NCBI GenBank assembly: GCA_023374045.1
Contig: CM041783.1
Location: forward strand, 126,977,503-127,041,502
DNA from: Limonium bicolor
Lineage: Eukaryota; Streptophyta; Magnoliopsida; Caryophyllales; Plumbaginaceae
Reading direction: 5' to 3'
DNA: 64,000 nucleotides
Shown here: positions 2,985 through 29,531 of the stretch, one piece after another
How positions within the stretch are numbered: position 1 is the first letter of the stretch
Layout: every line of letters starts with the position of its first letter
Translations under genes and position numbers: made by a program
The notes under the pieces: model-generated
Seen by the model: the letters and a program-made list of their open reading frames with translations, nothing else
Told to the model about the DNA's origin: nothing
The model's database searches: none

Positions 2985-3259
2985 GAGTGTTACCACGCTG
3001 CATCTCGAGTTGAGATCACCTGCCAGCTGAGAGATGAGGAACAAGCGCTGAAGCGCAAGGTGAGCGGCAAGGGTAACCCCTCCGAAGAACAAAACCAATC
3101 CAAACCCTGGAAGAAAAGGAAAGGAAGCACTCCCACCAGCAGAAAATACATCCGGAGACGGCGGTGCCCATGCTGAGAAGGGCAAGGCAACTGAGCCTTT
3201 ACAGATTGCCTACACCGCACCAGTGGCAGCGAAGCCACTGAGGTCTCAGCCCTACAGGG

Positions 3260-3351: not shown

Positions 3352-3693
3352 GTTCTGGATTTGGCCAAGGAAAGAACCAATCTGATGGCCGCAGCTACAT
3401 CTGCCGTAACTGCAACAAGGATCATCCCGGCACAGATTGCCAAGGAAGGGAGATCCGCTGCTATACCTGCCAGAAACCAGGCACCGTGCCAATGTATGCC
3501 CAAGAACTCTAAGCCCAAGGGCAACTACCAGGGCTACAAGCAGCGTGAGGGCAAGGAGCTGCATCTGGTGATGCTCATGCCCAGCATACCTCACAGGGAC
3601 AGGGATCCCGAGGCCCGCAGAAGGGCGCACCGCAGAGGCAGCCCGCCCTACACATCATTGACCGTGATGGGACCGGGACTAAGTCCGGCCCAG

Positions 3694-3882
3694 GTAACTA
3701 CCGTAACCTTTAATCCTTGAAAAGCATGCCTAAAGTAGTGAAGTAACTGTATGAGTAAATGTATGAATGCGTAAGTACTTGAAGTATGAAATTGAGCATG
3801 AGTAAGTAACGTGGAAGTATGTATTGAGCATGAAATGAATTAGTAAGCCTAGAACTTATTCTAGATGAATTTACCACCTTAG
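3694..3882 (+). other. Intron 3 of E1 (189 bp), gag to AlkB exon
   Basis: Donor CAG/GTAACT after a phase-1 exon end; acceptor CCTTAG/GG. The exon after it starts with two bases completing the split codon and is open to the AlkB stop. It matches 48096-48227 in E2. The same donor can alternatively reach the acceptor at 4764. Confidence 0.75.
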
Positions 3883-4622
3883 GGAAATTCCATATCTGTT
3901 ACCCAATACCTTCAAACTCACCTCATGAAGAGATCGACATCGCCAATCACCACTTCAACAACGAACAGTGTCAGGTCATCCGCCCAGGTATGATCTTATT
4001 AAAAGGATACCTGACACCCGAAGCACAAATTTCAATCATCCGACGATGCAACGAGTTAGGAACGGGTCCAGGAGGATTTTATACACCCGAATTCCCCGGT
4101 GGAGCTACAATGAAGCTGAAAATGATGTGCTTGGGAAAGGACTGGAACCCTTATACCAAGACATACCAAACAACGCGAGCAGGAGACGGAGCAACACCTC
4201 CAGCAATACCCCCAGAATTCCAAACGCTTGTCACACAAGCTGTAGAAATTGCACAACAATGTGAAGATGAACCAATCCCTGCACTTGAAGCAGATCTGTG
4301 TATCGTCAACTTCTATGAGAAAGAAGGACGACTTGGCTTACACCAAGACAAGGACGAGACAACGGAATCTCTTGAACTAGGAGTGCCCGTAGTGTCTTGG
4401 TCCATTGGTGATGACGCCGTATTTTTGTATAGCGAGCGGAAGCGTGTGGACCTCGCAGAAAAATTGGTATTGAGATCAGGAGATGTTCTAATCATGGGTG
4501 GAAAATCAAGGTTGCTGTATCACGGGATCCAGAAGATCAAGTTGAATACGGCACCACCGGCAATAATCAATGCCACACACATGATACCAGGACGCCTGAA
4601 CCTTACCTTTAGAAAGTATTAA
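3883..4622 (+). CDS. AlkB-type 2-oxoglutarate/Fe(II) dioxygenase exon (E1)
   Basis: Predicted oxidative demethylase of nucleic acids (Fe(II), O2, 2-oxoglutarate), fused by splicing to the Gag zinc knuckles. The exon is open from 3883; the first internal Met is at 3990, from which 210 residues follow. Counted from that Met: N107-F-Y109, the iron-binding HxD as H118-Q-D120, the distal His H178 in YHGI, and the 2-oxoglutarate RxNxTxR motif R202-N204-T206-R208. This is a complete AlkB double-stranded beta-helix. By eye it is nearest the plant ALKBH1B/C/D-type proteins (GRLGLHQDKDE, SGDVLIMGG, GRLNLTFR) rather than the m6A erasers ALKBH9/10 or viral AlkB domains. It aligns without gaps with 48335-48967, about 74 percent identical. 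The surrounding gag and pol are full of frameshifts; this exon has none. Substrate is unknown. Confidence 0.92.
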
Positions 4623-4764
4623 TCTTGTAGTAGCATGTAATCCAGTAGTAACGTGTATTAGAGACACAGTATGTATGATGGTTGGTTATTCAATAAAAGC
4701 AGAGTTGGTTATTAAATTCCACTTGCGTTCCACCATCTTTACTTATAATCTCATGAATCAATAG
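4623..4764 (+). promoter_or_regulatory. AlkB 3' UTR with poly(A) signal, then acceptor of the pol exon
   Basis: After the AlkB stop comes a canonical AATAAA at 4692-4697, 70 bases downstream. Then a T-rich stretch leads to an acceptor (CAATAG/G) at 4763-4764. E2 has the same arrangement at 49040-49045 and 49121-49122. This suggests a terminal exon with its own polyadenylation site that can be skipped. Confidence 0.65.
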
Positions 4765-5250
4765 GTTGTGGACTCGGTACCGAAGGTAACCTGAGCATCC
4801 TCACCGAAGAACAAGCCGGCAAGAGCGGCACATTCTAACGGGAACATTCCCAGTAAACGGCATCGAAGCCTCAGTATTATTCGACTCCGGCGCCTCTCAC
4901 ACCTTCATATCGCCATCTCTTGCGAAGAAGTTGGGGCTAGATGCGGATGAGCTACCAAATTTCTTGGTTACTCTCCCATCGAAGGAGCGGGTACAATGTA
5001 CCAAGTATTACAAATCAGCCACCATTCAAATCAAAGGTGAAGCGTTTCCCATTTCCTTCATCGAATTCAACGGATTGGGATTCGACTTAATTATTGGAAT
5101 GAACTGGTTGGAGCGGCACAAGGGGAGAATCCTATGCGCCGAGCACCGATTGCTGCTCAAGAGTCCATCTGGGTCACTGTTTCATACCGCCAGAGACCGA
5201 GAGAGCCTTCAACTACAGTCATCTCCGCCATGGCAATGTATCGGGAGCTC
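4765..5250 (+). pseudogene. pol: Aspartic protease region of pol (E1), frameshifted
   Basis: Cleaves Gag-Pol. Opens with two bases that would complete the phase-1 codon left at 3693, then GLGTEG as in E2. The active-site DSGAS begins at 4883, followed by the conserved [14 protein letters not shown] region near 5098. Frames break at about 4835 and again near 5185. E2 keeps the region in one frame (49123-49640). Confidence 0.85.
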
Positions 5251-6270
5251 AGAAAAGGGCATGAAGTGTATTTATGTCACGTGCAAGACCTGGAGAGAGA
5301 TCCAGAGTTCAGTGACGAGGTAGCAGTAGTCTCAGAATTCCCCGATGTATTTCCGAAAGAGCTACCTGGTATGCCACCACAGAGGGCGGTAGAATTTGAA
5401 ATCGATCTTGTACCGGGTACTGGTCCCATCGCTAGGGCACCATACCGTATGGCACCGGCAGAAATGGCAGAACTTAAGGAACAGCTACATGATCTTCTCG
5501 ACAAAGGGTTTATACGCCCGAGCGTATCACCCTGGGGAGCACCGGTCCTCTTCGTGAAGAAGAAGGACGGTAGTCTCCGCCTCTGCATCGACTACCGCGA
5601 ATTGAATGCGGTCACAGTAAAGAACAAGTACCCATTGCCACGCATCGACGACCTGTTCGATCAGTTGAAGGGAGCATCCGTCTTTTCTAAGATTGATCTC
5701 CGATCCGGTTACCACCAAATTGCTATCAAAGAGCAAGACATTCAGAAAACAGCATTCCGAACAAGATATGGCCACTACGAATTCACGGTGATGCCATTCG
5801 GTTTGTCTAATGCACCAGCCAAATTCATGGACCTAATGAATCGGTTATTCAGTGATCAGCTGGACACTTCAGTAGTAGTATTTATTGACGACATCCTTGT
5901 GTATTCGAAGTCACCAGAAGAGCATGAAAACCATTTGAGAAAAGTACTTGAGACACTGCGCGAGAACCAGCTGTATGCGAAGTTCTCCAAATGCGAGTTT
6001 TGGCTAGATCAGGTATCTTTCCTCGGTCATGTCATCTCGAGCGCGGGCATTTCAGTAGATCCATCCAAAATCGAAGCAGTGCGATCATGGCCTAGACCTA
6101 AGACGGTTACCGACATCCGGAGCTTTCTTGGTTTAGCCGGTTATTACCGGAGGTTTGTAAAGGACTTCTCGAAAGTCGCTAAGCCCATGACGGCATTGAT
6201 GAAGAAAGATGCACCCTTTGTATGGACAAAGGAGTGCGAAGTATCCTTTCAGAAATTAAAGACTCATTGA
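5251..6270 (+). pseudogene. pol: Reverse transcriptase (E1)
   Basis: Copies element RNA into DNA. Open over the whole domain in one frame. Visible landmarks are the PYRMAPAEM entry, [19 protein letters not shown], the [13 protein letters not shown] palm motif with its first catalytic Asp, [12 protein letters not shown], and the FIDDILVYS box holding the catalytic Asp pair at about 5881-5910. The thumb runs to the GLAGYYRRF connection. The frame is lost near 6255, at the start of RNase H. FIDD instead of YVDD is usual for plant Ty3/gypsy elements. Confidence 0.93.
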
Positions 6271-6660
6271 CCTCCTCAGCGCCAATTCTCACACTTCCAG
6301 AGGGCACAGAGGGATTTGAGGTGTATTGTGATGCATCGGGCAAGGGCATGGGATGCGTACTCATGCAGCATGGCAAGGTAGTAGCCTATGCTTCTCGCCA
6401 GCTGAAAAAGCATGAGGAGAATTACCCGACACATGATCTAGAGTTAGGAGCCATTGTCTTCGCCTTGAAGATATGGCGACACTATCTCTATGGGTAAGCA
6501 TCACCATCTACTCCGACCACAAAAGTCTACAGTACGTATTCACCCAGAAAGAATTGAACCTAAGGCAGAGGAGGTGGATGGAGTTCCTCTCGGATTACGA
6601 CATCAACCTCCAGTATAAAGAAGGGAAGGCAAACGTAGTAGCCGACGCCCTGAGTCGTCG
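6222..6660 (+). pseudogene. pol: RNase H and tether (E1), frameshifted
   Basis: Removes the RNA strand of the hybrid. [15 protein letters not shown] carries the first catalytic Asp; [21 protein letters not shown] follows with the Glu; then a frameshift near 6495 and IYSDHKSLQYVF with the next Asp; it ends at the ADALSRR motif near 6640-6660. Order and motifs are those of Ty3/gypsy RNase H. Confidence 0.9.
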
Positions 6661-7960
6661 AGCACACTCGCTCCATTCGCTACTCGCTTCTTCTAGCTTG
6701 GTTGACGAGGTGCGAGACGCTCAGTTGAGCGACCCTTACTTCACAGAGATCAGACAGAAAATTACAGATGGTACCTTCGAGCGCCGAAAGTACGACTTCA
6801 AACTGCATGAAGATGGTCTGATCCGTTTGAATGGCAGATTATGCGTCCCCCGAAGCAATGCTGAGCTAAGGGATCGCATTCTGCGAGAGTCACATTGTTC
6901 GACATTGCATGTCCATCCGGGAGCCTCTAAAATGTACAAAGACATGAAGAGGTACTTCTGGTGGTCAGGGATGAAGTCAGACGTGACTGAGTATGTTCTG
7001 AGGTGTCTCACATGCCAGAAGGTGAAGTTCGAGCACCGAAGACCGGGAGGAATGGTGCAATCCATGCCCATTCCGGAGTGGAAATTCCACGACATCTCCA
7101 TGGATTTTGTTGTTGGACTCCCACCTGCTAGGGGAGGACTCAACATGATCTGGGTAGTAGTGATCGCCTCACCAAGGTTGCCCGATTCATACCGATGAAG
7201 GACACCTGGAAGGTGGCGAAGCTCGCAGAGCTATTCGACAAGGAGATCATCCGACACCACGGAGTCCCAAAAACCATTGTATCTGACCGCGACACCAGAT
7301 TTCTTTCGAGATACTGGAGAGCGACACGGGAAGCGCTTGGTACTGAGTTGAAGCTTAGCACCGCCTTCCATCCACAGACCGACGGTCAGACAGAAAGGAC
7401 CATCCAAACACTAGAGGATATGCTAAGGGCATGTGCCTTAGACTTCCAGGGGAGCTGGATTGAGAAGCTTCATCTTATCGAGTTTTCGTATAACAATAGC
7501 TACCATGCTTCGATTAAGATGTCGCCATTCCAAGCTTTGTATGGTAGACCTTGCCGTACCCCGTTGTGTTGGGATGAGTCAAGCGAAGCGGTCATCATAG
7601 GACCGGAGTATTTGGAACAAGTACAAGCTGAGGTACAACAAATCCGAGCCAATATGAAGGCAGCCCAAGATAGACAGAAATCCTATGCGGATGTGCGACG
7701 ACGCGACCTTGAGTTCGCCGTGGGCGACCAAGTGTTCCTGCGTGTCTCACCTATGAAGGGTGTCTTCCGATTTGGCCAGAAGGGCAAACTGAGCCCGAAA
7801 TTTGTAGGCCCGTATGCCATTACCGAGAGGATTGGAGCCGTAGCTTATAGGCTAGCATTGCCTGAAGAATTGGGGCGTGTTCATGATGTCTTTCATGTAT
7901 CACAACTCAAGAAATACATAGCCGATCCCTCTCATGTATTAGAACCCGAACATCTATCCC
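6661..7960 (+). pseudogene. pol: Integrase (E1), one frameshift
   Basis: Inserts the cDNA. The N-terminal zinc finger has the paired His around HCSTLHVHPG (about 6893) and CLTC near 7005. The catalytic core has Asp in SMDFVVGLP (about 7100), Asp in VSDRD (about 7280) and Glu in GQTERT (about 7390). The GPY/F-type region (KFVGPYAI) is near 7800 and HDVFHVSQLKKY near 7885. The frame breaks around 7160-7190, just after the first catalytic Asp. Homology continues without loss of sequence, so this is a small indel. Confidence 0.92.
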
Positions 7961-8141
7961 TAGAGCCGACGATGAGATATGTCGAGACTCCATGCGAATC
8001 CTTGATACGAAGACAAGAGACACTCGCCATAAATCTGTACGAATGGTGAAGGTCTTGTGGTCTAACCACGATGTCGAGGAAGCGACTTGGGAATTAGAGG
8101 ACGCCATGAAGGCGAAGTACCCGAATTTATTTGTAGACTAG
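7961..8141 (+). pseudogene. pol: C-terminal chromodomain (E1), frameshifted
   Basis: After a frameshift near 8010-8030 the sequence reads MVKVLWSNHDVEEATWELED and ends at a stop at 8139-8141. This is the compact chromodomain of plant chromoviruses, thought to direct integration to marked heterochromatin. It fits the nested setting. It identifies E1 as a chromovirus. Confidence 0.85.
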
Positions 8142-8679: not shown

Positions 8680-11600
8680 TGAAATACCCCGTAATTAAAA
8701 ACAGTGATTAATTAGGCTAATTATATTTTTAAAGGCTTAATTACACTAAAATAATATGAGGGAACAAATCCCGAAGAAAACGGACCTTTAAAATGGGTTA
8801 AAAGCATAAACGAACCTTAAAGCGCGTTTTCCGAGGAAACCGGGAAAACGTGACTTTAAGCGGGTCAAATAGACTCGTAATAATTTTGGTCAACTAAATA
8901 GTCACTAATAAATATTAGTGAAGCTTTAGAACCAATAAAATTAATTAAACGAGAAAATTCCGGAAACGGGTACCGGTTAGTGAAAACTGTAACAACCGGT
9001 AAGTTGTGGGGTAAGAGTACAAATAAACAAACTAAGTGTGTCCACTTTGCAAATAAAAATAAAAATGTGTGTGTGTGTGGGTGTGGGATCCGATTTCCCT
9101 CTCACTCTCACTCTCTTTATTATTCCTAATTCACTAAATGACAAAAGGAATAAGTAAAAAGCAAACAAAACTCTCTCTCCTATTCTACCTCCTCTCACGT
9201 GTTCCCCTCCCTCTTTCTCTCTCTCTTTCCTTCTCTTCTCTACCTTGCGATTTTCATGGAGAATATGAAGAACCCACAAAACTCTCTCCTTCTCTCCTCT
9301 CTTGAGTACCCAATCTCCTCCAAATGCAATAAAATTACACCACTAGAATCCCCTTGCAAAGGAGAGATTTTCATCCTTTCAAAAACCAAAAGCTCCACTT
9401 TCATTTTATGGGTGTTCACCATTTGGAGATTTGAAGCCACCATTAGAAGCACCTTCACCTCCTTACATCTTGAGGTAAAAAGAAGTTCGAAAATCCACTG
9501 TTTCTAGCCCTCATTAGCATTTTAAGAATTTCAGTTTTTGAATCTTTCTCCATTGTTGCCAGCCGATTTTGGCTCTTCCTTGGGCTAGGAATATTGTTCT
9601 TTTGCTATTCAAGAACTCCATTCATCCATTGGAAGGTAAACTCTTTTCTAAACCCTAAACATTAAATTCTAGGGTTAGTGCAAATTGTATGTTAAATGGT
9701 GTTGTGTATTGGTATGGGTTGTAGAGCTTGGTGAAAACCCCATTCAAACCGAGAAGAAGGAGAAGGAAAGAGAAGAGGAAAGGAAAGAAAGAAAACTAAC
9801 AAGACAAGGTAATACCCTTACCTTGAGTTAGTTGTGTATTGTGTATGTAACAGTTTTTGGAGTTGTAAAATGAGTAGTGAATTGGGTAATGAGTAATGAG
9901 TATATTGTAGTATGTGAGTAATGAAGTTATAACAGTTTTGAAGTTTTTAACGAAACTAAAAGCTTGGGAAAACCATTGGGTAGTATGTGTATATGTGCAG
10001 GAATTTTAATGTGTGTAGTAGTGTTGAATGGTGTACATAATGTATTGTGTAAACAGGTTGTGAGAATGTGAATTTGTGAGCTGAAATAGTGTGTGGAGAA
10101 TGTTAGAAATATAGGGAAACCATGTCAAATTTTGTGTAGAATGAGAGGACTTAGCTTGTGTAAAAAGAGGAAGTAGTTAGAGAGTTTTAATGGATTGCCT
10201 TAGTAGTTGTAACAGATTGGAAATGAGTTTGTAAGGAAGGAAACTAGAGTGTAAGATAATGCATTTGGGATGCTAGGAGTAACATTAGTTGAGGGAGTAT
10301 TGAAGTGTAAAAGTTAAGTAAAAATCTGTAGCATAAGTGTGAGGAAACTAGTATAAGTGTTGAAAATGTAATGAGGAAATGTGTAAGTAAATGTAAGGAT
10401 TGAGTGATAAGTTTGGTGGATGAATTAAGGTGATTTAGAGTGTTTAATTAGTGCTAAATCATGTGGGGAATATTGTAAGGATAGGGAAGCAATAGGTGAA
10501 ATTGGGAAAGAAAAAATAAATCTGTAGCCATGTTCTGGAACCGTCCGACCCAGCGTCTGGATCGGACGTGGGTCGGACATGGCTTAAAAAACGAGAATAA
10601 ACCTTCTGGAACCGTCCGACCCAGAGCCGTGTGTCGGACGTGGGTCGGACGGGCCTTGAAAAACAACAGAAAATCCTTCTGGAATGGTCCGACCCAGGGC
10701 CGTGAGTCGGACGTGGGTCGGACGGGTAAAAATTTTTCTCCTCGAAGTTTCTGACTTCGTCCGACCCAGAGGTGGGTCGGACGTGGGTCGGACATGACCT
10801 GGATGACAAATCGAAACTTCTGGAATGGTCCGACCCAGAGGGTATGGGTCGGACGGAATAGTGCTGGGTCGGACGGGAGTAATTTCAGAGGACGAAAACC
10901 TACTGGAATGGTCCGACCCAGGGTTGGGTCGGACGGTGGGTCGGACGGCCCAAAACTTACAAAAAAAATGTTTAATTATATGACTATAGTAATCATATAT
11001 ACATATATATATGCCTATATACCTATATGCATATATATGTAGTAATACACCATTGATGTAGTAATAAAGGTAAGGAAGTAAGTAATTTTGTAAGAAAACA
11101 AGTTTATGAAGTAATAAAGGAAAGAATGGTTTGTAACCAAGTAAGAAAGTAATGGGGTAGTAAGTATGCATTGAAATACCAATGAAGGAGTAAGTAGATC
11201 AATAATAGATCATTGATCATACTACTTCATGTATGTATAGGAATCAAATAGTTGATCTCCAAGGGAACCGGTAGGACGTGTTCGACGGTGAACGGTATGA
11301 TTTCCTCATGCCCTGTATCCTAACTTGGTTACCCCGATTTGTGTGCTTATGTGATCACCAACAAGATAAATGCATGAATCGGATTTATATTGCACTTATA
11401 TGTGTTTGAACTATATTGTTCTTGTTTATGCTCTTGAACATTTAGTTTGTATAATTCATGAAATGTATGAATGGAATGAAGTGTATGTGTAAGTATGAGT
11501 ACTTGTGTATGTAGTATGTATGTATGGAAGTAAGTATGGACTTCTACTAATTCCTAACAACCTAACTCCTAACATGAGTAATGAGTAAAATGGAATGAGT

Positions 11601-12645
11601 AGAAGCCCGATATAGTTTCGGCCACGCGTGAGGATAAGGAACCACAAGAGGTTGGAACCGAATCCTGGCTATGATCTTTTCCTTGGACCAATTCCCTTTG
11701 TATGGGTAGCATCCTGGATTAGTGGGCCACCCTAAAGCCCGGTGGTGGGAAGTAGTATTCCCTGCCCGGAGGTCATACCGACTTAACTGGAAGTAAAGTA
11801 TGTAAAAGTATGTATTGTATTTGTATTGGTCTTGACTATTGTAAGTCATTGACCCGGAGTAAAAGTATTGAACACCCGATTAACCCGGTGTGTAATAAGG
11901 CTAACAAGACCTTGTATGTATTGGAGAATTGTATCTCCGTGATGCGGTGAGTATGGTAAGTATGAATGAATGACTTGTATTGTATTCCTTTGTATTGTAT
12001 GTATGTATGCTTGGTAAAATGAATGTATTGTATTGTATTGTTTGAATAAAGCATGTATGTATGTATGAATGAAACGAACCGCATGTACTCGACCAAATAG
12101 TTGGCGTACCCTCGCTAGTACGCGGGGTATGCGGTTATCATATGCAGCGTAAGCTGACCCCCTAGGGGGAATGTTTTTACTCCACAGGTACCCGCGAGGA
12201 GGCGTGAAGGTAAAGTAGGGTCAAGATGTGATTCTTTTTGGAGTAGTAGTAGAATTGAAACGGTGTACTGAGTTGTACACGGCTAAAGCCTTTTTGTGTA
12301 GCCGGTGTACCATGTGGTACACCTTTTGGATATTGAATTCTCGATTGGATGGAAGGAGAGTTGTATAAACTCTTCATTTTTGGGAAGTAATCTTGGAATG
12401 TAATTTGTATACTTTAGACACTCGGTAATCGAATGTAAGTAAGTATTCGGTATTGTAAAGGGAGTAGTATGTATGTATTCATTCTAATCGTCAGACCGAT
12501 ACGGTAAGTAGTAGTAGCCTTGTTAACCTTGGATGGTTAATGGCATTGTATCACCCGCCGGGAGTAGGTAAGTATTCCGCTGCGAGTAAGGTAATTATGG
12601 GAAGGATTAGAGGATAATGGAAGGATTAGCGGTTGGGGTGTTACA
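8680..12645 (+). repeat. E1 3' LTR (3966 bp)
   Basis: Starts TGAAATACCCC after the polypurine tract and ends GGGGTGTTACA. A pyrimidine-rich stretch (about 9100-9300) followed by CTTGAG/GTAAAA near 9470 looks like a transcribed leader with a splice donor. The hairpin array lies at 10533-10957. No canonical TATA box was found. Open frames here are not convincing genes. Confidence 0.9.
10533..10957 (+). repeat. Hairpin/HSE array in E1 3' LTR
   Basis: About six units, each TTCTGGAA (10533, 10604, 10677, 10818; a degenerate copy near 10903) followed by paired GTCCGACCC and GGGTCGGAC. At 10813-10825 the sequence reads GAA-ac-TTC-tg-GAA, a three-part heat-shock element. Unit length varies around 70-80 bases. 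Confidence 0.85.
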
Positions 12646-16358: not shown

Positions 16359-17789
16359 GTTGTTTCTGATTCTATTCTTAATGTGAGTATTGTGGTAGAA
16401 GTTCCAATATGTGTCAATGTACCTCTCCGCAGAATGAAGAGGTAAATTATATGGGAAATAGGCAAGGGAACTTTTAAATAACTAGAATAATGAGGGCTAT
16501 CAGCAGCAAAGATTTCAGGAGAATAACTACAATCAGAGTCCACCATAGCAGCACAATCAGCATTATCAGAGACTTCCTCATAATCACCATGCAGAATCGG
16601 CAAGTTCAAGATCAGCAAGCTGGTGTTAGCTCGGGTCTAGAGGCTATGATGTGTGAGTTATCACGACGACCAATAGAAGACTCGATCAACAAGAAAATAT
16701 AAATCATGAGCATAAGGCATTCATGCAAGAGTATAAAGCTTTCAACAAGCACCTTGAGACTCAGATTGCCCAAATTAATGAGAGATCTTCTGATAGGAAC
16801 CCAAGGGAGTAGGCCAAAGCTGTTTTTGTCGTGAAGATGTTCCACTTGTTGTTGTAGTTCTCCTGTTCAAAAAAAGAGGTTGAGGACTCCAGTAAAGTTT
16901 TTAAAAAAACTAAGGAGAAGGAGTCTCTTGAAACTCAACCTTCTAACTCTTCTAATTCTAATGGTAAATTTGAAGAACCTATTCCTTTTCCTGGCAGGTT
17001 AAAGAAAAGGGACCTGATGAACAGCTTTGAAAATTTCTTAGATTTTTTAAGAATAACTTAGGAGGGTTTTTTGGGGCTTGGTTTCTGATGTGCTTAAGTT
17101 AATGCCAACAAAATGCTAAACTAGCGGATGATATATTGGCTAATAAATGTTTAATGCCGGAAAAGAAAACAGCGAAGAAGGTAACTACTTGGAGTGGTAA
17201 AGGTAAAGCTACTGAACCTGAGGTGGCGAACATAGAGGAACCAGTGCTAGAGATTGTGCAAAATTTTGAAGCTACCTAGTCTTCTCCAGTTACACCACCT
17301 GCGGTTGAAGTTACTCCTCCAGTTCCTTTCCCGAGCAGAGTGAAACACACTAAGAAGGATAGTGAGTTTGATAAATTCCTTATTTTACTTCGTCAATTAT
17401 CAGTTGAAATTCCTTTTGTTGAATTAGTTGCGAAGGTTCCTAACTATGCTAAATATTTGAAGAAGTTGTTATCTAATAAGGCAAAGTTAGTTGAGAAAGG
17501 GACTATTCAGCTCATAGAAACTTGTTCAGTGGTCATACAGAAGCGCCTACCAGAAAAATGCAAAGATCTTGGAAGTTTCACAATTCCTTGCAAAGTAGGA
17601 GACATTAACTTCGACCACTGCCTTGCTGATTTGGGAGCGTCGGTCAGTCTCATGCCATACACTGTATTTAAACAGCTTGGGATTAGAGACTTACAGCCTA
17701 CAAGAATGATGCTTCAGCTAGCAGATCGCTCAATGGTTTATCCTTGTGGGATTGCGAAGGACGTGATGGTTAAGGTGGAGCATCTGTAC
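16359..17789 (+). pseudogene. Athila-like gag end and protease, interrupted
   Basis: Remnant of an Athila-type Ty3/gypsy element. Around 16480-16640 is a Gln/Asn-rich Gag C-terminus with stops. 16640-16800 resembles the region with LETQIAQ. 17340-17789 is open and holds the protease: ADLGASVSLMPY with D-L-G-A in place of the usual D-S/T-G-A, then LQLADRS and PCGIAKDVMVKVEHLY. The frame stops where element R inserted, at target duplication TGTAC (17785-17789), and resumes at 29532. RT and integrase are absent downstream. Confidence 0.75.
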
Positions 17790-18261
17790 TAAGAAGGGAA
17801 GAAATGGTGTCAAGACAAAACAGAATGTGTAGAGCATCCGGCCGCTTTAGCCGGATGGAATTAGAAACACATAGGGCATCCGGCCGTCTCCAGCCGGATG
17901 GGGATAGGACTTAGGCAGAGCAAAGTATTATACGACCGACCGTCTGTGGTCAGTCAAAGATACTAGGAAAGGGTAGAACTGTACTTATACATGTAAAATA
18001 CAGGCTGGCATCATAAAAACCATGCCCAAAATACTATAAATAGGGGTGTACCCCCATGAAATAAGATACGCAACATTTGGCAGTCGAACTTACATTCGAT
18101 TCCAATAGAAGCTCTCTTTCTCTCTCTCTCTCTACTCTTGTGAGACTTTGTGATTGAGACCAGGTAATGTAGGATAGAGGATCAGATTGGATCATGCTAG
18201 GATAAATGTATTGTTTCATTAAGATCAGATCGAAGGTTACTAGGATTGATGCACTGTTTCA
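17790..18261 (+). repeat. R 5' LTR with TATA box
   Basis: Ends TGTTTCA at 18261. TATAAATAG at 18035-18043 is a good core promoter. Two hairpins with stems CATCCGGC/GCCGGATG lie at about 17836-17860 and 17876-17902. A CT-repeat at about 18115-18135 is in the likely leader. Confidence 0.93.
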
Positions 18262-18263
18262 TT

Positions 18264-18281
18264 TGGCGCCGTCTGTGGGAA
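18264..18281 (+). promoter_or_regulatory. R primer binding site
   Basis: TGGCGCCGTCTGTGGG lies two bases after the LTR end. TGGCGCCGT-type primer sites, matching an aspartate tRNA 3' end, are common in Tat and Athila elements; the match beyond the first nine bases was not checked. Confidence 0.8.
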
Positions 18282-18398
18282 ACGAACAGCAAGAAACAAC
18301 CACGAGACCACCTAGAAACAGGGAAGTAATCTGCGATGATTTATAGCAAAAGTCCTGAAACAACTAATGACATTTTTTGCAGGATCGGAACACGACAA

Positions 18399-19784
18399 AT
18401 GGCTCCAAGATCAAAGAAAACACCGAAGAACGCTACCGGAGATAACAATCGCTCTGAAGAAGGAATGAGTTCGGAGATGCCAGAAGCCATCTCCAAAAAA
18501 GATCTCGAGGACATGCTAAAGGGGCTAGTCAGATCCATCGACGAAAAAATTGTAGAGGGAAATGAGACTTTGCAACAGGAGTTAATGCAAAGGGACGAGG
18601 AGTATCAGAGAAAATGGGATGAAATGACTGAGGCCATTGAACAACTGAGAAACAGAGATTCCAGAGGCAGTAATGGCGAGGAAAGCAAGGATATGAAGCG
18701 AAATTCAATCATTGCGAAGAAGAGATGGAAGAAGATGACCAGATAGACATGAGCTTGTACCCCTTCTCAGAGCGGATAAGAAAAGCAAAACTCCCGCCGC
18801 ACTTCGTCGCCCGGCGATTGAGAAATATGATGGGACTGGAGATCCCGCCCAACATATTAAGAAGTTCATGTTTGCCATGAACACTCAGGGGATCAGCTCC
18901 CTCGCCCTCTGCAATCTGTTCCCCGGAACGCTTTCGAAGAGAGCGTTGGGATGGATCTCACGAGACCGCCACAGTCCATCACGAGCTTCAAGCACCTGAC
19001 CAAGGATTTCCAGCAATACTTCGCTGCGAGTAAGAGGGTTAAAAAAGAAACAATAGAATTGATGGACGTTAAGCAGCGAAAAGGAGAGACCGTGAAGGAG
19101 TTCAGCGAGCGCTTCCATAAGAAGGTCGCAGAGATTGATGATATCGACGAGAAAATCTTGATTAAGGCCTTTGGTAACGGCCTAGCTCAGCCTCGACTAG
19201 CTGGAAAGATCGCAACGAAGGCGCCGAAAACTCATGGAGAATTAGCTGAAATGATCCATGATTTTTTGAAATCTGAGATAGCGGAAAACAAGGCTAAAGA
19301 GCTAGCGGACAGCTTCAAACCCGCAGGGGTGCCGGAAAAGAAGGAGGGGCATGGAGGAAATGCCGGAAGGGGAGGGTCAAGGTACAAGCCATATTATGGC
19401 AAGTCTACCGCCGGATCTTCCTCTCAGGGGGCACAACACTAGGGAGCAAGAACCATTGTCTACATTGACCCGGGGAAGTATGATGCTGCAGTAAGAGAAG
19501 GGTACCTTCCCCAGCCTAGAAAGCCGCCGCAGGGGGAAATTCCGGTTGCATTCTGTGAGTACCACGGGAACCGCAGCCACCGGACTGTAAACTGTGCTAC
19601 CTTGGCCAAAGAACTTCGAGTCATCGAGGAAAATAAGAAGAAAGAAAAGCAGGCAGCCGGAGCACAAAGGCAATACGGCGGCCAACAGGGTAGTACCCAG
19701 AATGCACCTCGAGGGCGACAAGAGGAAGAGGTTCACCCCAGGCTTGATCCCGGCAAATCAGTGGGAATGATAACAGGTTTGTGA
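18399..19784 (+). pseudogene. gag: Gag of element R, frameshifted
   Basis: Starts at MAPRSKKTPKN with a charged, coiled-coil-like first 110 residues. A frameshift near 18735 leads to the capsid region (AIEKYDGTGDPAQHIKKF near 18810) and another near 18930 to ITSFKHLTKDFQQYF and MDVKQRKGETVKEFSERF. An in-frame stop is at about 19440. The zinc knuckle CEYHGNRSHRTVNC near 19555 is the Tat-type knuckle. GMITGL then a stop at 19784 closes the frame. A TTTTTTGCAG acceptor-like site precedes the start. Confidence 0.82.
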
Positions 19785-20040
19785 AGAAGGAGAGTAAAAG
19801 TTTCTCTCCTTTCATTCAGGATAACATTCGGAGTTAAAATTTGTAGCCTGCTTTAAGATGAAAATTTTGTGTCACATAGATTGTCAAAGATCATGCTGCC
19901 AAAAGGAGAAATAAAATTTCCATTCTTTTTGCATTTTTTACTATTAGTTCCCAAGAAGAAAGCTAACAAAACTTTCTCTAAGAAAACTCACAGGACTTTT
20001 TTCAGAGGTAGGACAACTAACCCCTAATTAAAGAAAAAGG
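19785..20040 (+). other. Gag-protease spacer of R, possible intron
   Basis: No open frame bridges Gag and protease here. CAG/GTTTGT at 19776-19778 could be a donor and AAAG near 20033 an acceptor, as in Ogre-type relatives with an intron before pol. The phases do not match exactly, so this stays tentative. Confidence 0.35.
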
Positions 20041-20700
20041 CACATTCATCAAGTACATCAAGAACTCCCGGAGAAGAAAATCGCCAAAAAGGAAAGTTTT
20101 CCTCCAATTTTCTTCTCCGACGAGGATGAAGATGGAGTGCTATACCCGCACAACGATCCACTTGTCATTCGTGCACAGGTAAACGATGGAATGATGGAGG
20201 GAATTTTAATCGATAGTGGGGCCGGAGCAAATGTCATATCAGCTGAGGCGGTTAGGAGGTTGGAGATACCTGAGGACCGGATCAAGCCCTATTCGGCGGT
20301 TCTGGGAGGATTTGTAGGAGGCGTCTCTACCACGTCTTCCGGCAGTATAGATTTCACAATGACCCTGGGCCAAGGAGACGAAAGAAGGACAGAGAGACTC
20401 ACGGCTTTTATTGTGCCAGGTCTTTCTGGATATAACATGTACCTTGGAAGGCCAGGAATCAATGCTTTCAAAGCCATCCACAGCACTCATCACTTAAAAA
20501 TGAAATATTTAACCTCACACGGGAAGGTGGTTACGATAAGAGGAAGCCAAAAGATGGCCCGAATGTGTGAAGTCCGCATCATGGATAGCCTTCCTAGTGA
20601 GGAGGTGGTCAAAACTGTGGGATCGGACAAGGAGTTCAAGGGAAAGTTGCCTTCTTCCCCAGGGCCGAGTCAAGAAAAGGAAGGATGTCGAACAGCCCAA
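20041..20700 (+). CDS. pol: Aspartic protease of R
   Basis: Open and continuous with RT. It begins with the acidic FFSDEDEDGVLYPHNDP segment typical of Tat proteases. The active site is ILIDSGAGANVIS (about 20206-20244), followed by the flap and MYLGRPGINAFKAIHSTHHLKMKYLT. No stop interrupts it, so the domain itself looks intact although its junction to Gag is not. Confidence 0.88.
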
Positions 20701-21697
20701 GATCTCCCCAGAGAGGTACATTTAAAATCTGACCCTTCTAAATTTTTTAAAATAGGAACTGCGTTTGACAGTGGAGAGCAAACTCACTTAATGAGGTTCC
20801 TGGAAAAAAGAAGGGCGACATTCGCTTGGAGCACGGACGAGATGCCTGGTATAGACCCAAGCGTTATCCGGCATGAGCTCAGGGTAGACCCTAAGCATCC
20901 GGCGGTCAGGCAAAGGAAAAGGGTAATAGGGGAAGAAAGAGATTTAGCCGCACGAACCGAGGTCCAAAAACTCCTCAAGGCCGGATTCATCAGGGAGGTT
21001 GCGTACCCACGATGGTTGGCTAATGTTGTCATGGTGAAAAAGGCAAATGGAAAATGGAGAATGTGTGTGGATTTCACAGATTTAAATAAGGCATGTCCTA
21101 AAGATTTCTATCCCCTGCCATCAATAGATAGATTGGTGGTTTCAACTGCCCAGAGTTCTGTGTTAAGTTTTCTGGATGTTCTCCGGTTATAATCAAATAA
21201 AAATGAAAGAAGATGATTCGGAAAAGACATCTTTTATTACTTCAGCCGGAACATTCTGTTACAAGGTAATGCCCTTCGGCCTAAAGAATGCAGGGGCCAC
21301 TTTTCAACGAATGATTGACAAAGTATTTTGTCAAAAAATTGCTCGAAATGTGGAGGCTTACATTGATGATATAGTTGTAAAAAGTCCGTCAAAAGAACAG
21401 CACATGAAGGATTTAGAAGAAACATTCGACACTCTGGATAAATACCAAATCAAACTAAATCCAGAAAAGTGTGTTTGGTGTAACCAAGGGAGGTTTCTTG
21501 GTTTCATTGTTGGGCAACGAGGTATTGAAGTCGATCCGGAAAAAAGTCAGGCAATCCTCGACCTTTCTCCTCCAAGAAATATCAAAGATGTCCAAGCTTT
21601 GAACGGAAGACTCAACGCATTAAGTAGGTTTTGTTCTAAGCTTCAAGAAAAATCAATCCCATTCTTCAATATTCTAAGGAAGAACAACAAATTCTAG
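20701..21697 (+). pseudogene. pol: Reverse transcriptase of R, one frameshift and one stop
   Basis: RHELRVDP and the WLANVVMVKKANGKWRMCVDFTDLNKACPKDFYPLP block are diagnostic of Tat RT. The frame is lost at 21180 inside the first palm motif (SFLDV...SGYNQI), at the catalytic Asp region. It resumes with MPFGLKNAGATFQ and AYIDDIVVKS (about 21358), which holds the catalytic Asp pair. A stop at 21695-21697 precedes RNase H. Confidence 0.9.
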
Positions 21698-22172
21698 TGG
21701 GGACAAGAGTGCATAGACGCATTTGAAAAGATCAAGGAGATGCTTCGGGATCTACCTAAATTGGGTGTACCTGCCCCGGGACAGGATCTATATCTTTACT
21801 TGTCCGCAACAGATTGGGCGGTTGCAGCTGTCTTAATCATGAAAGAGAAAAGGGAGATACCAGTTTACTATACGGGCAAAATCTTGAGCCCGACAGAAGG
21901 ACGGTACACTAACATAGAGAAAATCTTGTTTGCACTGGTGGTGGCGTCAAGAAAGCTACGACCCTACTTCCAGTCACATCGAATCTTTGTCAGGACCAAT
22001 TGGCCGCTCAAGCAAATTGCGAACAATCCGAATGCCTCCGGCCGGATGGTAAGCTGGACAGTAGAACTGACACAATATGAAATTCACTTCTTGCCCAGAA
22101 CGGCGATTAAAGCTCAGGCCTTAGTAGACTTCATAACAGAAACAAACTTTGCGAAAGAAAAGAAGCAGACTC
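21698..22172 (+). pseudogene. pol: First RNase H of R
   Basis: DLYLYLSATDWAVAAVLI carries a Ser where the first catalytic Asp of other RNases H often sits. TNIEKILFALVVASRKLRPYFQSH, a divergent IFVRTNWPLKQI (usually V.TD.PL) and WTVELTQYEIHFLPRTAIKAQALVDF follow. Loss of the Asp fits the known decay of this domain in Tat elements, where the second RNase H is thought to act instead. Confidence 0.85.
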
Positions 22173-22177
22173 AGAGT

Positions 22178-22660
22178 CCATATATCATCTTGGTTGATGG
22201 AGCTCGATGCAAAAGTGGGGCAGGAGCTGGGATAGTGGTACAGGCGCCGAATGGGCAAAGCTTGAATTATGCCTTCCGACTGGACTTTGATGTTACTAAT
22301 AATGAAGCCGAATACGAAGCCCTTATCCAGGGTTTGGAAGTAGCTACAGCCCTCGGGGCGACAGGTTCCATAGAAAAGATGCTTTCTCTGTTTTTTCATT
22401 CTTATAAAATCCTGTCTAAAGTAAAACTTATGAGAATATAACCTATTTTTAACAGAATTAGAGGTGTATTCGGACTCTATGTTGGTGGCAAGACAAAATG
22501 ACAACATCTATGAAGTCAAAGAAGAAAAACTATGGAGGTACTTGCTCAAGGTCCAGGAACTAAAAGCAAATTTCCAAAGATGCGAGCTAAAACACCTTCC
22601 CGCGAAGAGAATGTCGAAGCTGACGCCTTAGCCAAATTGGCAAGTATGGCCGAAAAGTTA
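22178..22660 (+). pseudogene. pol: Second, archaeal-type RNase H of R, with a 91-bp intron
   Basis: Reads ILVDGARCKSGAGAGIVV (first Asp), NNEAEYEALIQGLEVA (Glu) and, after the break, LEVYSDSMLVARQ (Asp) and ADALAKLAS. This extra domain defines the Tat lineage. Homology is split by 22365-22455, which starts GT, ends CTATTTTTAACAG, contains stops, and whose exact removal (phase 1) restores ALGAT-E-LEVYSDS. One further base loss lies near 22600. Confidence 0.88.
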
Positions 22661-23953
22661 CCCAATGAGATATGGCAAGAAATCAGAACTTCCCCAAGTA
22701 TAGAAGGAACTCAGGTGTTTGTGGTGGAGACAGGTGACAAAGAAGAATCCTGGATGACTCCAATCATAGATTACGGCAAGGAAAGCTGCCGAAGGAGAAA
22801 AGGAGGCCAGATAATAAAAAGGCGGGCCGCATCATTTTTTATTGAGGATAACCAGCTGTATAAGCGATCTTTTGCAAGGCCAGCACTGAAGTGTGTTACC
22901 ATAGCTGAAGGAGCAGAATAAGAGAGATACATGATGGGCTCTGTGGAAATCACCAGGGAGAAAGGACCACAACCCACAAAATCTTGAGACACGGATATTT
23001 TTGGCCGAAAATGATGGAGCATTGCAAGGAATATATACGAAAATGTCGCAAGTGTCAAGAGCATGGAAACAAATACATACTCCTCCGGCGGAGCAAAAAT
23101 CTATTCTCTGCCCAATTCCCTTTGCTATGTGGGGGTTGGACATTGTGGGCCCATTCCCGGAAGCTTCACAGGGAGGTTCAAATTCATGTACGTTGCCATC
23201 GACTACTTCACAAAGTGGGTCGAAGCAATGCCTACTGTCTCCATCACGGCAAGGAAGTCACAAGAATTTCTGGAAATATGTGGTATGCAGGTTTGGTATA
23301 CCGAAAGCAATAATAACTGATAATGGAACACAGTTCAATTGCGAAAGCTTCCGAGAATTCTGTGAAGAATGGAAGATCGACTTAAGATTTGCATCAGTAG
23401 CTCACCCTCAGGCAAATGGGCAGGTCGAGATGCGAATGGGCAAATAGTAAGGGCGATAAAGAAGAAACTCAATGAAAAAAAAGGAAAGTGGGCAGAATTG
23501 TTACCCCAGGTCCTTTGGTCGTACAGAACGACAGAAAGGGGGTCGACGGGAGAAACGCCTTACAGATTGACATATGGTTTGGAAGCCGTCATTCCGGCAA
23601 AATTGTGGTGCCATCCATAAGGTGGGAATCATATGACGAAGAGGTCAACAATCAGGGGGCAGGATCACCTAGACCTCCTTGAAGAAACCAGGATGGCCGC
23701 CGTAGTAAGGATGGCGAAATATAAATCCAAGGTAGAAAGATATTTCAACAGGAGGATAAAAGAACGACGTTTTGCCCCAAGAGAATTAGTTCTCCGAGAA
23801 GTTAAGCAACCCAAGAAGCTGGAACCCCAATGGGAAGGACCGTACATCATACACCAGAAGACGGGACGAGCTTCATACCGCTTAAAAAATGGTGAAGGGT
23901 ACGAATTGCCGCATTCTTGGCATGGAGAATGTCTGAAAAAGTTCTATGTGTAA
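22661..23953 (+). pseudogene. pol: Integrase of R, several frameshifts
   Basis: Zinc finger HGYFWPKMMEHCKEYIRKCRKCQEH near 22990. Core pieces are in different frames: WGLDIVGPFPEAS (first Asp, about 23130), YVAIDYFTKWVEAMP (about 23190), ITDNGTQFNC (second Asp, about 23315), HPQANGQVE (Glu, about 23405), and LWSYRTTERGSTGETPYRLTYG. The C-terminal part with the GPY/F motif (EPQWEGPYII) is open at 23633-23953 and ends in a stop. At least four small indels. Confidence 0.88.
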
Positions 23954-24002
23954 AATTTATAACTCTTCAATAAAAGGTATTATTTTTGGGAAAGTGAAAG
24001 AA

Positions 24003-24662
24003 AAAGAAAGCACCGGCCAACGAGCCGCAGGCTATCATGCCTTGAAAGAAAGCACCGGCCAACGAGCCGCTATCATGCCTTGAAAGAAACATCCGGCCAA
24101 CGAGCCGCAGGCTATCATGCCTTGAAAGAAAAAGAAAGCACCAGCCAACGAGCGCAGGCTATCATTCCTTGAAAGAAAAAGAAAGCACCGGCCAACGAGC
24201 CGCAGGCTATCATGCCTTGAAAGAAAAAGAAAGCACCGGCCAACGAGCCGTAGGCTATCATGCCTTGAAAGAAAAAGAAAGCACCGGCCAACGAGCCGCA
24301 GGCTATCACGCCTTGAAAGAAACATCCGGCCAACGAGCCGCAGGCTATCATGCCTTGAAAGAAAAAGAAAGCACCGGCCAACGAGCCGAAGGCTATCATG
24401 CCTTGAAAGAAAAAGAAAGCACCGGCCAACGAGCCGCAGACTATCATGCCTTGAAAGAAACATCCGGCCAACGAGCCGCAGGCTGTCATGCCTTGAAAGA
24501 AAAAGAAAGCACCGGCTAACGAGCCGCGGGCTATCATGCCTTGAAAGAAAAAGAAAGCACCGGCCAATGAGCCGTAGGCTATCATGCCTTGAAAGAAAAA
24601 GAAAGCACCGGCCAACGAGCCGCAGGCTATCATGCCGAGCCGCAGGCTATCATGCCTTGAAA
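24003..24662 (+). repeat. Minisatellite in R 3' UTR (48- and 42-bp units)
   Basis: About fourteen units built from GCCTTGAAAGAAA, (AGAAAGCA)CCGGCCAACGAGCC and GCAGGCTATCAT. The long unit is 48 bp; a shorter variant with AACATCC is 42 bp. Both are multiples of three, so long open frames appear on both strands. Tandem repeats in the 3' UTR of Tat elements are known as seeds of plant satellites. Confidence 0.92.
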
Positions 24663-25124
24663 GAAAAAGAAAAGAGTCGGCAACAGGCCGCAGATTCCTA
24701 TACTTCATATCCTAAAAATCCGGCTAAAAACCATAGATGACCATACTTTAAAAGGAAAAAGGGTCCGGGCGGAACCAAAGTCCAAAACCACAAGTCCCTT
24801 GTGTTGTAAAGAATGGATACTACACTGGCATAACTTGCATAAGATAACCATACGTGCACCATTAAAAAAAAGAGGGAAATATCACGGCAATAGAAAACTC
24901 GGCTCAAAAGAGTCACTCCGGCAGACAAATAACTAAAGATGGTAAAAATATAGATATTTCTCCCAAGGTGTGGGGTAAAAACAGTTACAAAATATGATCA
25001 TTCGGCAAACAAAAAAATACATGCCGAAACAAAAACTCCTCTAAAGATAAAAAAAACTTCTATTACTTTCTCTACAGCTTCTTTTTCGGCAGTTAACAAT
25101 CTATCGCCGCTACCAGCCACACTC
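24663..25124. other. R spacer without a gene
   Basis: Separates the minisatellite from the 3' end of the antisense gene. I see no domain, repeat or convincing frame. It may include the antisense transcript's 3' UTR. Confidence 0.5.
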
Positions 25125-26491
25125 TCAGAAGACTTGGACCTCCTGGAAAGACGCTGCATCCCTCCGGCAGACGGCAGGATGTTGCTTCCAGCTGGAAGAA
25201 TGAGGCTTCGCCGGCGCCAAAACATGTCTCTCCAGGACTGAGGCAAAACCTCTCGAGCTCCAAGAAGAAGTTGGACTTCTGGGCAACAGCCTTGAATTCC
25301 AGCTTGTTATACAGATCATCATCCAGTAACTCTCTTTCTCGAGAGAGTGATCCGAGACAATCTGCTGGCAAATATCAACTATCCGGCGACACTGAGAAGC
25401 AAAGGACTCCTTTAGATGGGCGTAAATGGTGCCTTGCTTATATATCTCCTCCTGAGATTGCCGGGAAAATGACTTGAGCCTGGCCACTTGAGATTCAAGG
25501 GTCAGGACTTGGGCTCGATACTTGTCACGTTCAGAATTGGCAGATGACAGCTCCTCCTTAGCACGGCTACCCGACCACTCAACTGAGTGACGTGCTTCAG
25601 TAAGTTGGCAGAACTCAAGCCTAGCCGGAACAAAAAAGAATAAGAAGAAGAAAAGGGCAAAAGGAGAAACAAAAGTTGAAGGCCTGAAGTTTACCATGGC
25701 CCGATGGCTCAGTATTCTCGGCTTGAGAGCGAGACTTGGCTTCCTCCAGCTCTTTTACTCTCTCCTCCAGCCTGGTCCTCTCTTCTATCAGGGCAGCTTT
25801 ATCCGCAACAAGGGTTTTCTTCTCCTCTTCAAAAGAGAGCAGTCTCGGAGCAGAGACTGCTTCTCTTGATCAAAGGAGGACTCGACTGCTCTTCCAGTGC
25901 GGCCTTTTCTTCCGACAGGCGATCAAGCTCCTGCATAAGCTTTTCTTTTTCCTTCACAAGGGCTTCATTCTCCCGTTGAAGAGTTTGCTTCTCCAGCTCG
26001 AGCGTTTCAGCCTCCTGCTTGAAAGAGTTCCTCTCCTGATAGAAAAAGGCCTTGTCACCTGAAGAGTGTTCACTTCGTTCCGGTGCATAGAGCGTACCTG
26101 ATCCAGCATAATATCTAGGTCAAAGAAGGACCGAATCAGCTTATCTTTATCAAGGGAAAAAGAGATGGTTTCATACCTCTATCAAAGTTGTCAGCTTCCT
26201 TGATCCGGCCTCTTAGAGAAAAGTTCTTCCCGGAGTTTCTTCAGCTGCAGCTCATACTCATCACGCTGACGCTGCATTCTCGCGGGACAACTGCAGGTCT
26301 TTGTTTATTACTTCAGTTCTCTCCTTTTCCTTACGGTCGATCTCATACTTAACCTGGTCAATGTAAGCATCATGAGAAGAGCGGGACAGCTTCAGTTCCT
26401 CCTCAACATTATTGGCTCGGCTTTCCTCATAGCGAAGCCTGGATTGGAGGTTGCCAAAGTGAACCTCAGCACTTTGGGCCATGGACATCAC
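25125..26491 (-). CDS. Antisense gene of R, C-terminal coiled-coil exons
   Basis: Minus-strand frames hold long heptad-like, Glu/Lys/Leu-rich sequence: RLRYEESRANNVEEELKLS (26491-26261), EAETLELEKQTLQRENEALV and KLMQELDRLSEEKAALEEQ (about 26030-25890), and SERDKYRAQVLTLESQVARL (about 25540). These read as one long coiled coil cut by introns or small indels; exact exon edges are unresolved. The gene runs opposite to pol and lies between pol and the 3' LTR. Coiled-coil tails are common in such Tat antisense proteins. Role unknown. Confidence 0.6.
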
Positions 26492-26818
26492 CTAAAAGCA
26501 ACACAATTCATAAAATCAAGGAAAAAGCCAAACCAAAACAGAAGAGAAACACAAAAGATACGCATGCCAACCTGAAAGATTCCCCCCCACATCATGTCAA
26601 ACACTTCATTTATTGGGAGGGAATGCCGCATGATAGCATCTGCCCCCCCATCTCCGATCCGCAGCCTTTTTTTGGTAGCAGTAAAGGGGCGGAGGAGCAA
26701 AGATCCCGTCGGATGACCAGATCTCTTTATTGCCTCCTTCAGACGAGGAGTACTTGGCAGAGTCGCAGGTTATCAAAGGAAGAGGGTGCCCGCAATGGTA
26801 GAACCACCCTTATTTTTG

Positions 26819-27102
26819 GGAGGGTCCAGTATAGGACTCCTGAGCAGGAGGAGGAGGGGAAGAAGAAGAGGAGGCTATGTAGTCCTCTCTCTGCTTACTC
26901 CGGAGCTCAGGATCCTCCGGCACCTGACGATACTCCATTGCTCTATCCCTTGCCGCATCCATGGCCACAACAACGTCAGTGCAGAATGATCCTGAAGCTT
27001 CGGGATCACCAGAGGTTTGTCCTTCTCCTGATGCCCCTGGCTCTGTGGCCTTCGGCTTTGATGTAGTTTTCTTTTTTAGTCTTTTCTTGGCAGGAGCAGG
27101 GA
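26819..27102 (-). CDS. Antisense gene of R, basic exon
   Basis: Starts after a GCGGCAG acceptor and continues the previous exon in phase 1 with VPAPAKKRLKKKTTSKPK, a likely nuclear-localisation stretch, then an acidic and Ser/Pro-rich segment ending at a stop near 26819 (or at an unseen donor). The preceding intron is 27213-27103 (111 bp on the minus strand). Confidence 0.6.
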
Positions 27103-27213
27103 CTGCCGCAATAATAAAAACAGTTAGGACCAGAAGGTAGAAACTGGAAATGGAAGGATACTAAAAATAGAGGAAAAGTAAAGAATAGGAGAAAGCGACG
27201 AAACAACCAAAAC

Positions 27214-27681: not shown

Positions 27682-27757
27682 CTACATACAACATGTCAAA
27701 ACGATAAGAAAACCGATAGGAATGACAGAACTTGTATTAAGAGTTAAAGGCGCTTAC

Positions 27758-28509: not shown

Positions 28510-28677
28510 TGTCAAGCTTAACAAAGGATCAAAGGGCGACGGCAATGAAAGACGAGGTAGCACAGAACAACCGGGGGGCGAGAGAAGAAGAACAGTCGAA
28601 GTAAAGGGGCAGTAGAAGAAAGAAGAGGAAGCTCAAAGATCGGGCTTTAAGGGAAGTTTTTTCCCGCTCAAATAAAT

Positions 28678-28688: not shown

Positions 28689-28689
28689 A

Positions 28690-29526: not shown

Positions 29527-29531
29527 TGTAC

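Follow-up and report, generated by a model that had tools for sequence, protein, structure and literature searches.

A captured AlkB dioxygenase has been described in Ty3/gypsy retrotransposons of orchids. The Ogre-like Gypsy_Pa_2799 elements of two Phalaenopsis species are reported to carry an ALKBH5-type AlkB, encoded by a separate ORF of 565 amino acids (ORF2), which has m6A demethylase activity in vitro (PMC9289625). The same report places Gypsy_Pa_2799 as sister to Ogre in the Tat group, with a tRNA-Arg primer site and a dual RNase H, and states that such elements were not detected in the other genomes of a 121-genome screen (PMC9289625). AlkB domains are also present in plant RNA viruses (Alphaflexiviridae, Betaflexiviridae, and Closteroviridae), for which a role in RNA repair has been proposed (cited in PMC9289625). 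Among plant proteins, rice ALKBH1 (OsALKBH1) reportedly has 6mA demethylase activity on single-stranded DNA in vitro; we equated the rice ALKBH1 locus of that study with the protein of structure 5xeg by their shared name (PMC10469495). Finally, the copia elements EVADE and BARE1, as well as Ogre, are reported to use introns to make separate Gag and Gag-Pol products (PMC12786077).

Here we describe an AlkB exon in a stretch of 64,000 nucleotides from Limonium bicolor (contig CM041783.1), which we call the window. An earlier, sequence-only reading of the window held that AlkB domains are not a standard part of Ty3/gypsy elements. Such a domain had already been published in Phalaenopsis, in a different element clade and of a different AlkB subfamily (PMC9289625).

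Two Ty3/gypsy elements in the window carry AlkB

Element 1 is a Ty3/gypsy element of 14.6 kb, and both of its LTRs were found (3,954 and 3,966 bp, with TG..CA ends, a CACAC target-site duplication, and a purine tract before the 3' LTR). Pfam matches show the order Gag, protease, reverse transcriptase (RT), RNase H, and integrase, in separate pieces, and the protease matches RVP_2 (6.1e-27). AlkB sits downstream of the Gag zinc knuckles and upstream of the protease, as the sequence-only reading had placed it: Pfam matches flank it, and a second element is arranged alike. The features of element 1 are as follows (positions are those of the window).

1-1995, + strand: 5' LTR (full length 3,954 bp, the first 1,959 of which precede the window)
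2001-2012, + strand: primer-binding site TGGTATCAGAGC
2222-2897, + strand: Gag exon 1 (frame broken)
2985-3259, + strand: Gag exon 2 (predicted; frame broken)
3352-3693, + strand: Gag exon 3 (zinc knuckles; phase-1 donor at its end; frame broken inside)
3694-3882, + strand: intron predicted to separate Gag exon 3 from the AlkB exon
3883-4622, + strand: AlkB exon, from a phase-1 acceptor to the stop codon (profile, sequence, and fold matches)
4623-4764, + strand: 3' UTR or intron after AlkB (AATAAA at 4692-4697; phase-1 acceptor at its end)
4765-5320, + strand: start of the Pol exon, protease (frame broken)
5041-6267, + strand: open frame with reverse transcriptase
6437-7195, + strand: open frame with the end of RNase H and the zinc-binding domain of integrase
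7132-8046, + strand: integrase open frame with an SH3-like C-terminal domain
7902-8135, + strand: integrase end that resembles a chromodomain (Pfam Chromo 1.1e-4, narrowly below the cut-off)
8680-12645, + strand: 3' LTR

We call element 1 a chromovirus on a weak chromodomain match at the integrase end: the Chromo matches in the two elements score 22.5 and 24.5 bits, just under the cut-off of 25.1, and lie in the right place in both. Element 1 may belong to the Tekay/Del clade of chromoviruses, and we take TGGTATCAGAGC to be a primer-binding site of the initiator-Met type. The LTR pair differs by 52 substitutions (K=0.013), and at two assumed substitution rates this divergence corresponds to an insertion age of 0.5-1.0 million years.

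Against these 52 substitutions, the LTRs (1-1995 and 8680-12645) show 98 gap openings, which reflect either indel errors in the assembly or an indel-rich history. Because of these gaps, some of the broken frames of element 1 may be assembly errors, and artefacts could account for many of those in Gag and Pol.

The second, diverged element (element 2, at 46.5-50.5 kb) has AlkB in the same position.

46473-46484, + strand: primer-binding-site-like TGGTAACAGAGC (one mismatch; chance matches are common, and its position supports it)
46703-48095, + strand: Gag (predicted exons 46703-47335, 47422-47674, and 47754-48095; one stop in exon 1)
48228-48967, + strand: AlkB exon
49123-49637, + strand: protease exon
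50025-50503, + strand: RT piece (a nested insertion interrupts it at 50504)

The remainder of pol in element 2 lies past the nested insertion, in the downstream flank (L040). The Gag genes of both elements are broken. The insertion is a long young element that runs from 50504 to beyond 64000 within the RT of element 2, and its end pieces of 1.8 and 2.7 kb match at 98-99% identity.

Other repeats lie in the window as well. An LTR-type element at 17280-29527 has Gag, protease, RNase H, and integrase matches and a second RNase H-like match (RVT_3); it is flanked by a repeat pair (17792-18262 and 29060-29527, 96.6%) and includes a minus-strand ORF (27757-28632) that matches PF04195 (gypsy-type transposon). 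This element looks Tat/Ogre-like. An LTR-like pair of about 2 kb (34335-36386 and 41442-43489, 98.2% identical) encloses no frame of at least 300 codons (the longest listed has 122) and perhaps bounds a non-autonomous element. Tandem repeats, seen as overlapping self-match arrays, lie at 23995-24693 and 56449-57256.

The exon encodes an AlkB domain of the OsALKBH1 kind

The AlkB reading frame of element 1 is open from 3834 to 4619 in the ORF listing of the window; the span given by the sequence-only reading starts where the exon is predicted to begin (3883) and closes with the final base of the stop codon (4622). The profile search that had been proposed as a check gave a strong match: PF13532 scores 149.3 bits (E=2e-43; the curated cut-off is 31.2) and is covered from 2 to 194 of its 194 positions, which is the whole domain. 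By sequence, the nearest solved structure among the PDB matches is 5xeg (E=1.2e-67). An AlphaFold2 model built from a 43-sequence alignment (mean pLDDT 93.6) has as its top PDB fold match OsALKBH1 (5xoi; 51% identity; TM 0.84 by query and 0.90 by target), followed by E. coli AlkB; human ALKBH1 is weaker. Identity to the OsALKBH1 structures (5xeg and 5xoi) is 51-52%. ALKBH5 was absent among the 21 PDB sequence matches and the 50 fold matches listed for the element AlkB.

The motifs that the sequence-only reading had named (NxY, HxD, a distal His, and RxNxTxR) were all found in element 1, as NFY, HQD, H, and RLNLTFR. They are invariant where covered in an alignment of six retroelement sequences, and the motifs for iron and 2-oxoglutarate (2OG) are kept in both window copies and in the first ten loci of a third subfamily (see below). 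Ahead of the domain, a stretch with FDIC is common to the element and host ALKBH1 proteins. These results support the view that 3883-4622 encodes a complete AlkB dioxygenase domain of the plant ALKBH1C/D (OsALKBH1) kind. The likeness to plant ALKBH1B/C/D proteins that had been noted by eye was thus borne out for ALKBH1C/D, with OsALKBH1 nearest in both sequence and fold.

Copies and conservation of the AlkB exon

The AlkB exons of elements 1 and 2 share 74% of their amino acids. We searched the host genome (2.92 Gb) with both copies and with a palm ALKBH1D. Copy 1 gave at least 150 matches at 96-100% identity (14 of those 150 have a stop), and copy 2 gave at least 150 at 92-100% (13 of those 150 have a stop). 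The palm query gave 117 scored matches at 53-58% identity from 47,067 first-look candidates. (The three AlkB searches had 47,067 to 50,291 such candidates, which are unscored and give no copy number.) Thirty of these 117 matches (the first ten and another 20 chosen by hand down the list) were examined and define a third subfamily of AlkB elements, 59-63% identical to copy 1. All 30 were elements, and none was the ALKBH1 gene of the host itself. The AlkB-bearing elements are real, conserved, and abundant in the host genome.

Lists ranked by AlkB favour copies with an intact AlkB, so a sample picked by protease DNA is fairer. From 3,972 candidates, 40 were scored and 30 of these were examined, including the copy in the window itself. 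All 30 loci contain AlkB, and 29 contain Gag exon 3. Five loci have a fully intact AlkB, and an RT stretch of equal length is likewise intact in five, so we saw no preferential preservation of AlkB after insertion in this sample. AlkB is a regular part of this subfamily, and once inserted it decays like the rest of the element.

Between elements 1 and 2, the dN/dS of AlkB is 0.098 (bootstrap 0.048-0.153), similar in size to the 0.085 of the protease; a short stretch of Gag exon 3 gives a loosely bounded 0.388 (0.18-1.18). The dS of AlkB between these copies is about 1.6, which is near saturation. Within subfamily 3, the five pairs that we computed have AlkB dN/dS values of 0.11-0.18. These ratios indicate that purifying selection keeps AlkB between copies.

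Could a fragment or pseudogene of a host gene have been inserted by chance, in one element or in one young burst? The AlkB frame is broken in 25 of the 30 protease-picked loci, as a passenger's would be, but so is the RT stretch of the same length, also in 25 of 30. Also, three subfamilies keep AlkB in place at low dN/dS, near 0.1 between the window copies. The sequence-only reading had itself named a recent pseudogene shared by no other elements as the outcome that would speak against it, and instead three diverged subfamilies carry AlkB. We consider an insertion by chance extremely improbable, and we rejected a passenger or pseudogene because AlkB is kept in these three subfamilies.

One donor faces two acceptors

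In both window copies, Gag is interrupted by short, intron-like GT..AG stretches. Gag exon 3 ends at a phase-1 donor, and the AlkB exon and the protease exon both start at phase-1 acceptors. This arrangement, in which a single phase-1 donor can pair with a phase-1 acceptor ahead of AlkB or with another ahead of the protease, is present in three subfamilies. AlkB and protease share a frame in copy 1 and differ in copy 2, and the distance from Gag exon 3 to the protease is divisible by three in copy 1 but not in copy 2; yet in each copy both predicted splices, to AlkB and to the protease, preserve the phase. That the distance changes while the splices stay in phase speaks against read-through or frameshifting. 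We rejected a frameshift or read-through from AlkB into protease because the relative frame differs between the window copies.

The sites are kept in most of the loci examined. Among the 30 protease-picked loci, 28 have the donor, 30 the AlkB acceptor, 30 the protease acceptor, and 27 the AATAAA (of the two loci without a standard donor, one reads N and one is changed). Seven of eight loci picked by AlkB, one of them the window's own, keep every site, and the other (L007) is without the part before the AlkB exon. In subfamily 3 (n=30), the order exon 3, AlkB, protease is seen in 29 loci, a GTAAG donor in 28, and the strict protease acceptor pattern in 24; the acceptor TAATAG, followed by G, precedes AlkB in all loci except L064 (29 of 30).

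We also compared the two copies at the DNA level. Gag exon 1 is 68% identical, the AlkB exon 73%, and the protease exon 72%. For Gag exons 2 and 3 the values are just 55% and 52%, no higher than for the introns. Two predicted introns are at the level of shuffled sequences (0.447 versus a shuffled mean of 0.452, and 0.519 versus 0.469), and intron 3, at 0.538, is slightly above its shuffles (maximum 0.534). Four proteins from intron-free relatives gave a weak check, with 200 shuffles per exon: the protease exon was above its shuffles in three of the four, Gag exon 3 in two, and a piece of Gag exon 1 in two (narrowly). Gag exon 2 and the AlkB exon were above their shuffles in none of the four in this weak check.

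Intron 3 is present in all 30 protease-picked loci, which suggests that, as in retroviruses, the unspliced RNA serves as the genome that is copied. Copies 1 and 2 share 63% identity over the 142 bases that follow the AlkB stop, above all 40 shuffles (maximum 53%), and this stretch contains AATAAA in both window copies. Of the first ten loci of subfamily 3, one has AATAAA and the other nine have AATGAA. An internal poly(A) site behind AlkB is possible.

Overall, the splicing model is well supported by sequence: the sites and their phase are kept in three subfamilies, and the splicing itself is predicted. The claim that AlkB lies inside the element therefore holds, but AlkB does not seem to be part of a single Gag-Pol frame; it looks like an alternative terminal exon that begins at a phase-1 acceptor.

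Another reading of the same anatomy is that AlkB is free-standing. Translation would start at an ATG within the AlkB frame (3990), on an RNA that is subgenomic or initiated internally, the protein would act in trans, and the splice sites would only remove AlkB from the Gag-Pol mRNA. This ATG is kept in both window copies and in three database proteins (P0001 to P0003), and the orchid AlkB is a precedent for a separate ORF (ORF2; PMC9289625). The same methionine is common in host ALKBH1 proteins, though, so its conservation says little. Also, the coding stretch upstream of the ATG is conserved between copies: the 35 codons of the AlkB exon before the first ATG have a dN of about 0.32 and a dS of about 1.45 (by subtraction, between the window copies), as a fusion would predict and an independent start would not. 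Finally, a conserved acceptor lies exactly before this stretch and matches the Gag donor in phase. We consider translation from its own ATG unlikely.

The position of AlkB and the conserved sites would also fit a switch that sets the ratio of Gag to Gag-Pol, with the AlkB exon serving chiefly as a cassette for splicing and termination and its enzyme activity unused. A mere cassette would need neither the iron and 2OG motifs nor the whole fold, which are kept across subfamilies that are 59-76% alike, and we find this explanation very unlikely.

Origin of the captured domain

In phylogenetic trees, the AlkB sequences of the retroelements form one clade on a long stem (support 100/99 with 66 rows and 100/100 with 38 rows). 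Four database proteins (P0001-P0004) join this clade. We took these four to be elements on the basis of the tree and, for P0002, because it also keeps the stretch before the domain. Separately, a protein labelled Staphylococcus aureus (P0279, from a 1.8-kb contig) is 74% identical to the element RT; it is probably plant contamination of a public genome.

The retroelement clade falls outside the 59 host rows in the 66-row tree, with weak support (82/51), and beside Arabidopsis and Tarenaya rows in the 38-row tree, which has other sampling (95/83). AU tests rejected none of the groupings with eudicots (p-AU 0.294), with monocots (0.46), or with all but monocots (0.348). Among 300 stretches of viral contigs that matched a search pattern, none was a relative. 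AlkB was likely captured from a plant gene, and the AU tests are compatible with several donor lineages. The proposal of capture from a host gene stands as to a likely plant ALKBH1-type origin. The divergence among the subfamilies speaks for an old capture.

A proposed role for Gag-AlkB

Our preferred reading, which we hold with slightly better than even confidence, is that a lineage of chromodomain Ty3/gypsy elements keeps a long-captured ALKBH1-type dioxygenase as an alternative terminal exon, which would yield a Gag-AlkB protein that demethylates the element's nucleic acid. An ancestral element would have captured the dioxygenase from a plant long ago. The donor after the Gag zinc knuckles would join the AlkB exon to give Gag-AlkB, ending at the AlkB stop, perhaps on a transcript with its own poly(A) site; or the donor would join the protease exon instead, skipping AlkB, to give Gag-Pol. 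Together with Gag, Gag-AlkB would enter virus-like particles. There, its fusion to Gag and the RNA-binding knuckles would place the enzyme on the genomic RNA and the new cDNA, and the reported activity of OsALKBH1 on 6mA in single-stranded DNA makes single-stranded cDNA or RNA a likely substrate. In the particle, AlkB may strip methyl groups (6mA, or marks of the m1A/m3C type) from the genomic RNA or single-stranded cDNA, which could ease reverse transcription or hide the marks from the host.

Alternatively, Gag-AlkB or AlkB might act mainly on the nucleic acid or chromatin of the host (host RNA, or marks at element copies) and so relieve silencing. According to one report, rice ALKBH1 is nuclear and affects 6mA at R-loops as well as H3K27me3 (PMC10469495). 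The anatomy of the Gag fusion, with its RNA-binding knuckles, points instead to the particle and its RNA, and we judge action on host targets to be quite unlikely.

Returning to Gag-AlkB in the particle, this role suggests that the elements rid their own genetic material of methyl groups. More specifically, we propose, at somewhat under even confidence, that an old lineage (silent sites of the subfamilies are near saturation) delivers an OsALKBH1-type demethylase as an alternatively spliced Gag fusion, independently of the orchid case and maybe acting on other marks.

If so, plant Ty3/gypsy elements would have made two separate captures of different AlkB subfamilies, of which the orchid one is active in print and the one described here is kept under selection. 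Plants and retrotransposons would then be generally in conflict over nucleic-acid methylation. An alternative exon that encodes an enzyme would add to the known cargo of LTR elements, and this design makes a testable prediction of where the enzyme acts, namely in the particle alongside Gag.

Comparison with known systems

In the literature that we searched, which had most subscription journals outside its reach, we found no chromovirus with AlkB. The closest known system is Gypsy_Pa_2799 (PMC9289625). Both are high-copy Ty3/gypsy families with a captured plant AlkB and its cofactor residues. Gypsy_Pa_2799 belongs to the Tat group and has a tRNA-Arg site, whereas element 1 is probably chromodomain-type and has the TGGTATCAGAGC primer site; the orchid AlkB is the separate ORF2, whereas the AlkB of element 1 is an exon between the zinc knuckles and the protease; and the orchid AlkB is ALKBH5-type by its published description, which sets it apart from the OsALKBH1-type fold of the element AlkB.

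The element AlkB has the same fold and the same iron and 2OG motifs as OsALKBH1 (5xeg and 5xoi). Unlike the plant ALKBH1C/D host genes, it is a retroelement exon in a long-stemmed clade of its own. Like the plant RNA viruses, the element is a plant parasite that encodes an AlkB domain; in the viruses AlkB is a domain of a viral protein, whereas in element 1 it is a Gag-linked retroelement exon (PMC9289625). EVADE, BARE1, and Ogre are also reported to have introns that separate Gag and Gag-Pol products; they make a short Gag or remove a gag-pol intron, whereas here, where splicing is predicted from sequence, the alternative exon would add an enzyme (PMC12786077). Compared with the AlkB retroelements of orchids, the elements described here differ in AlkB subfamily, in element clade, and in architecture.
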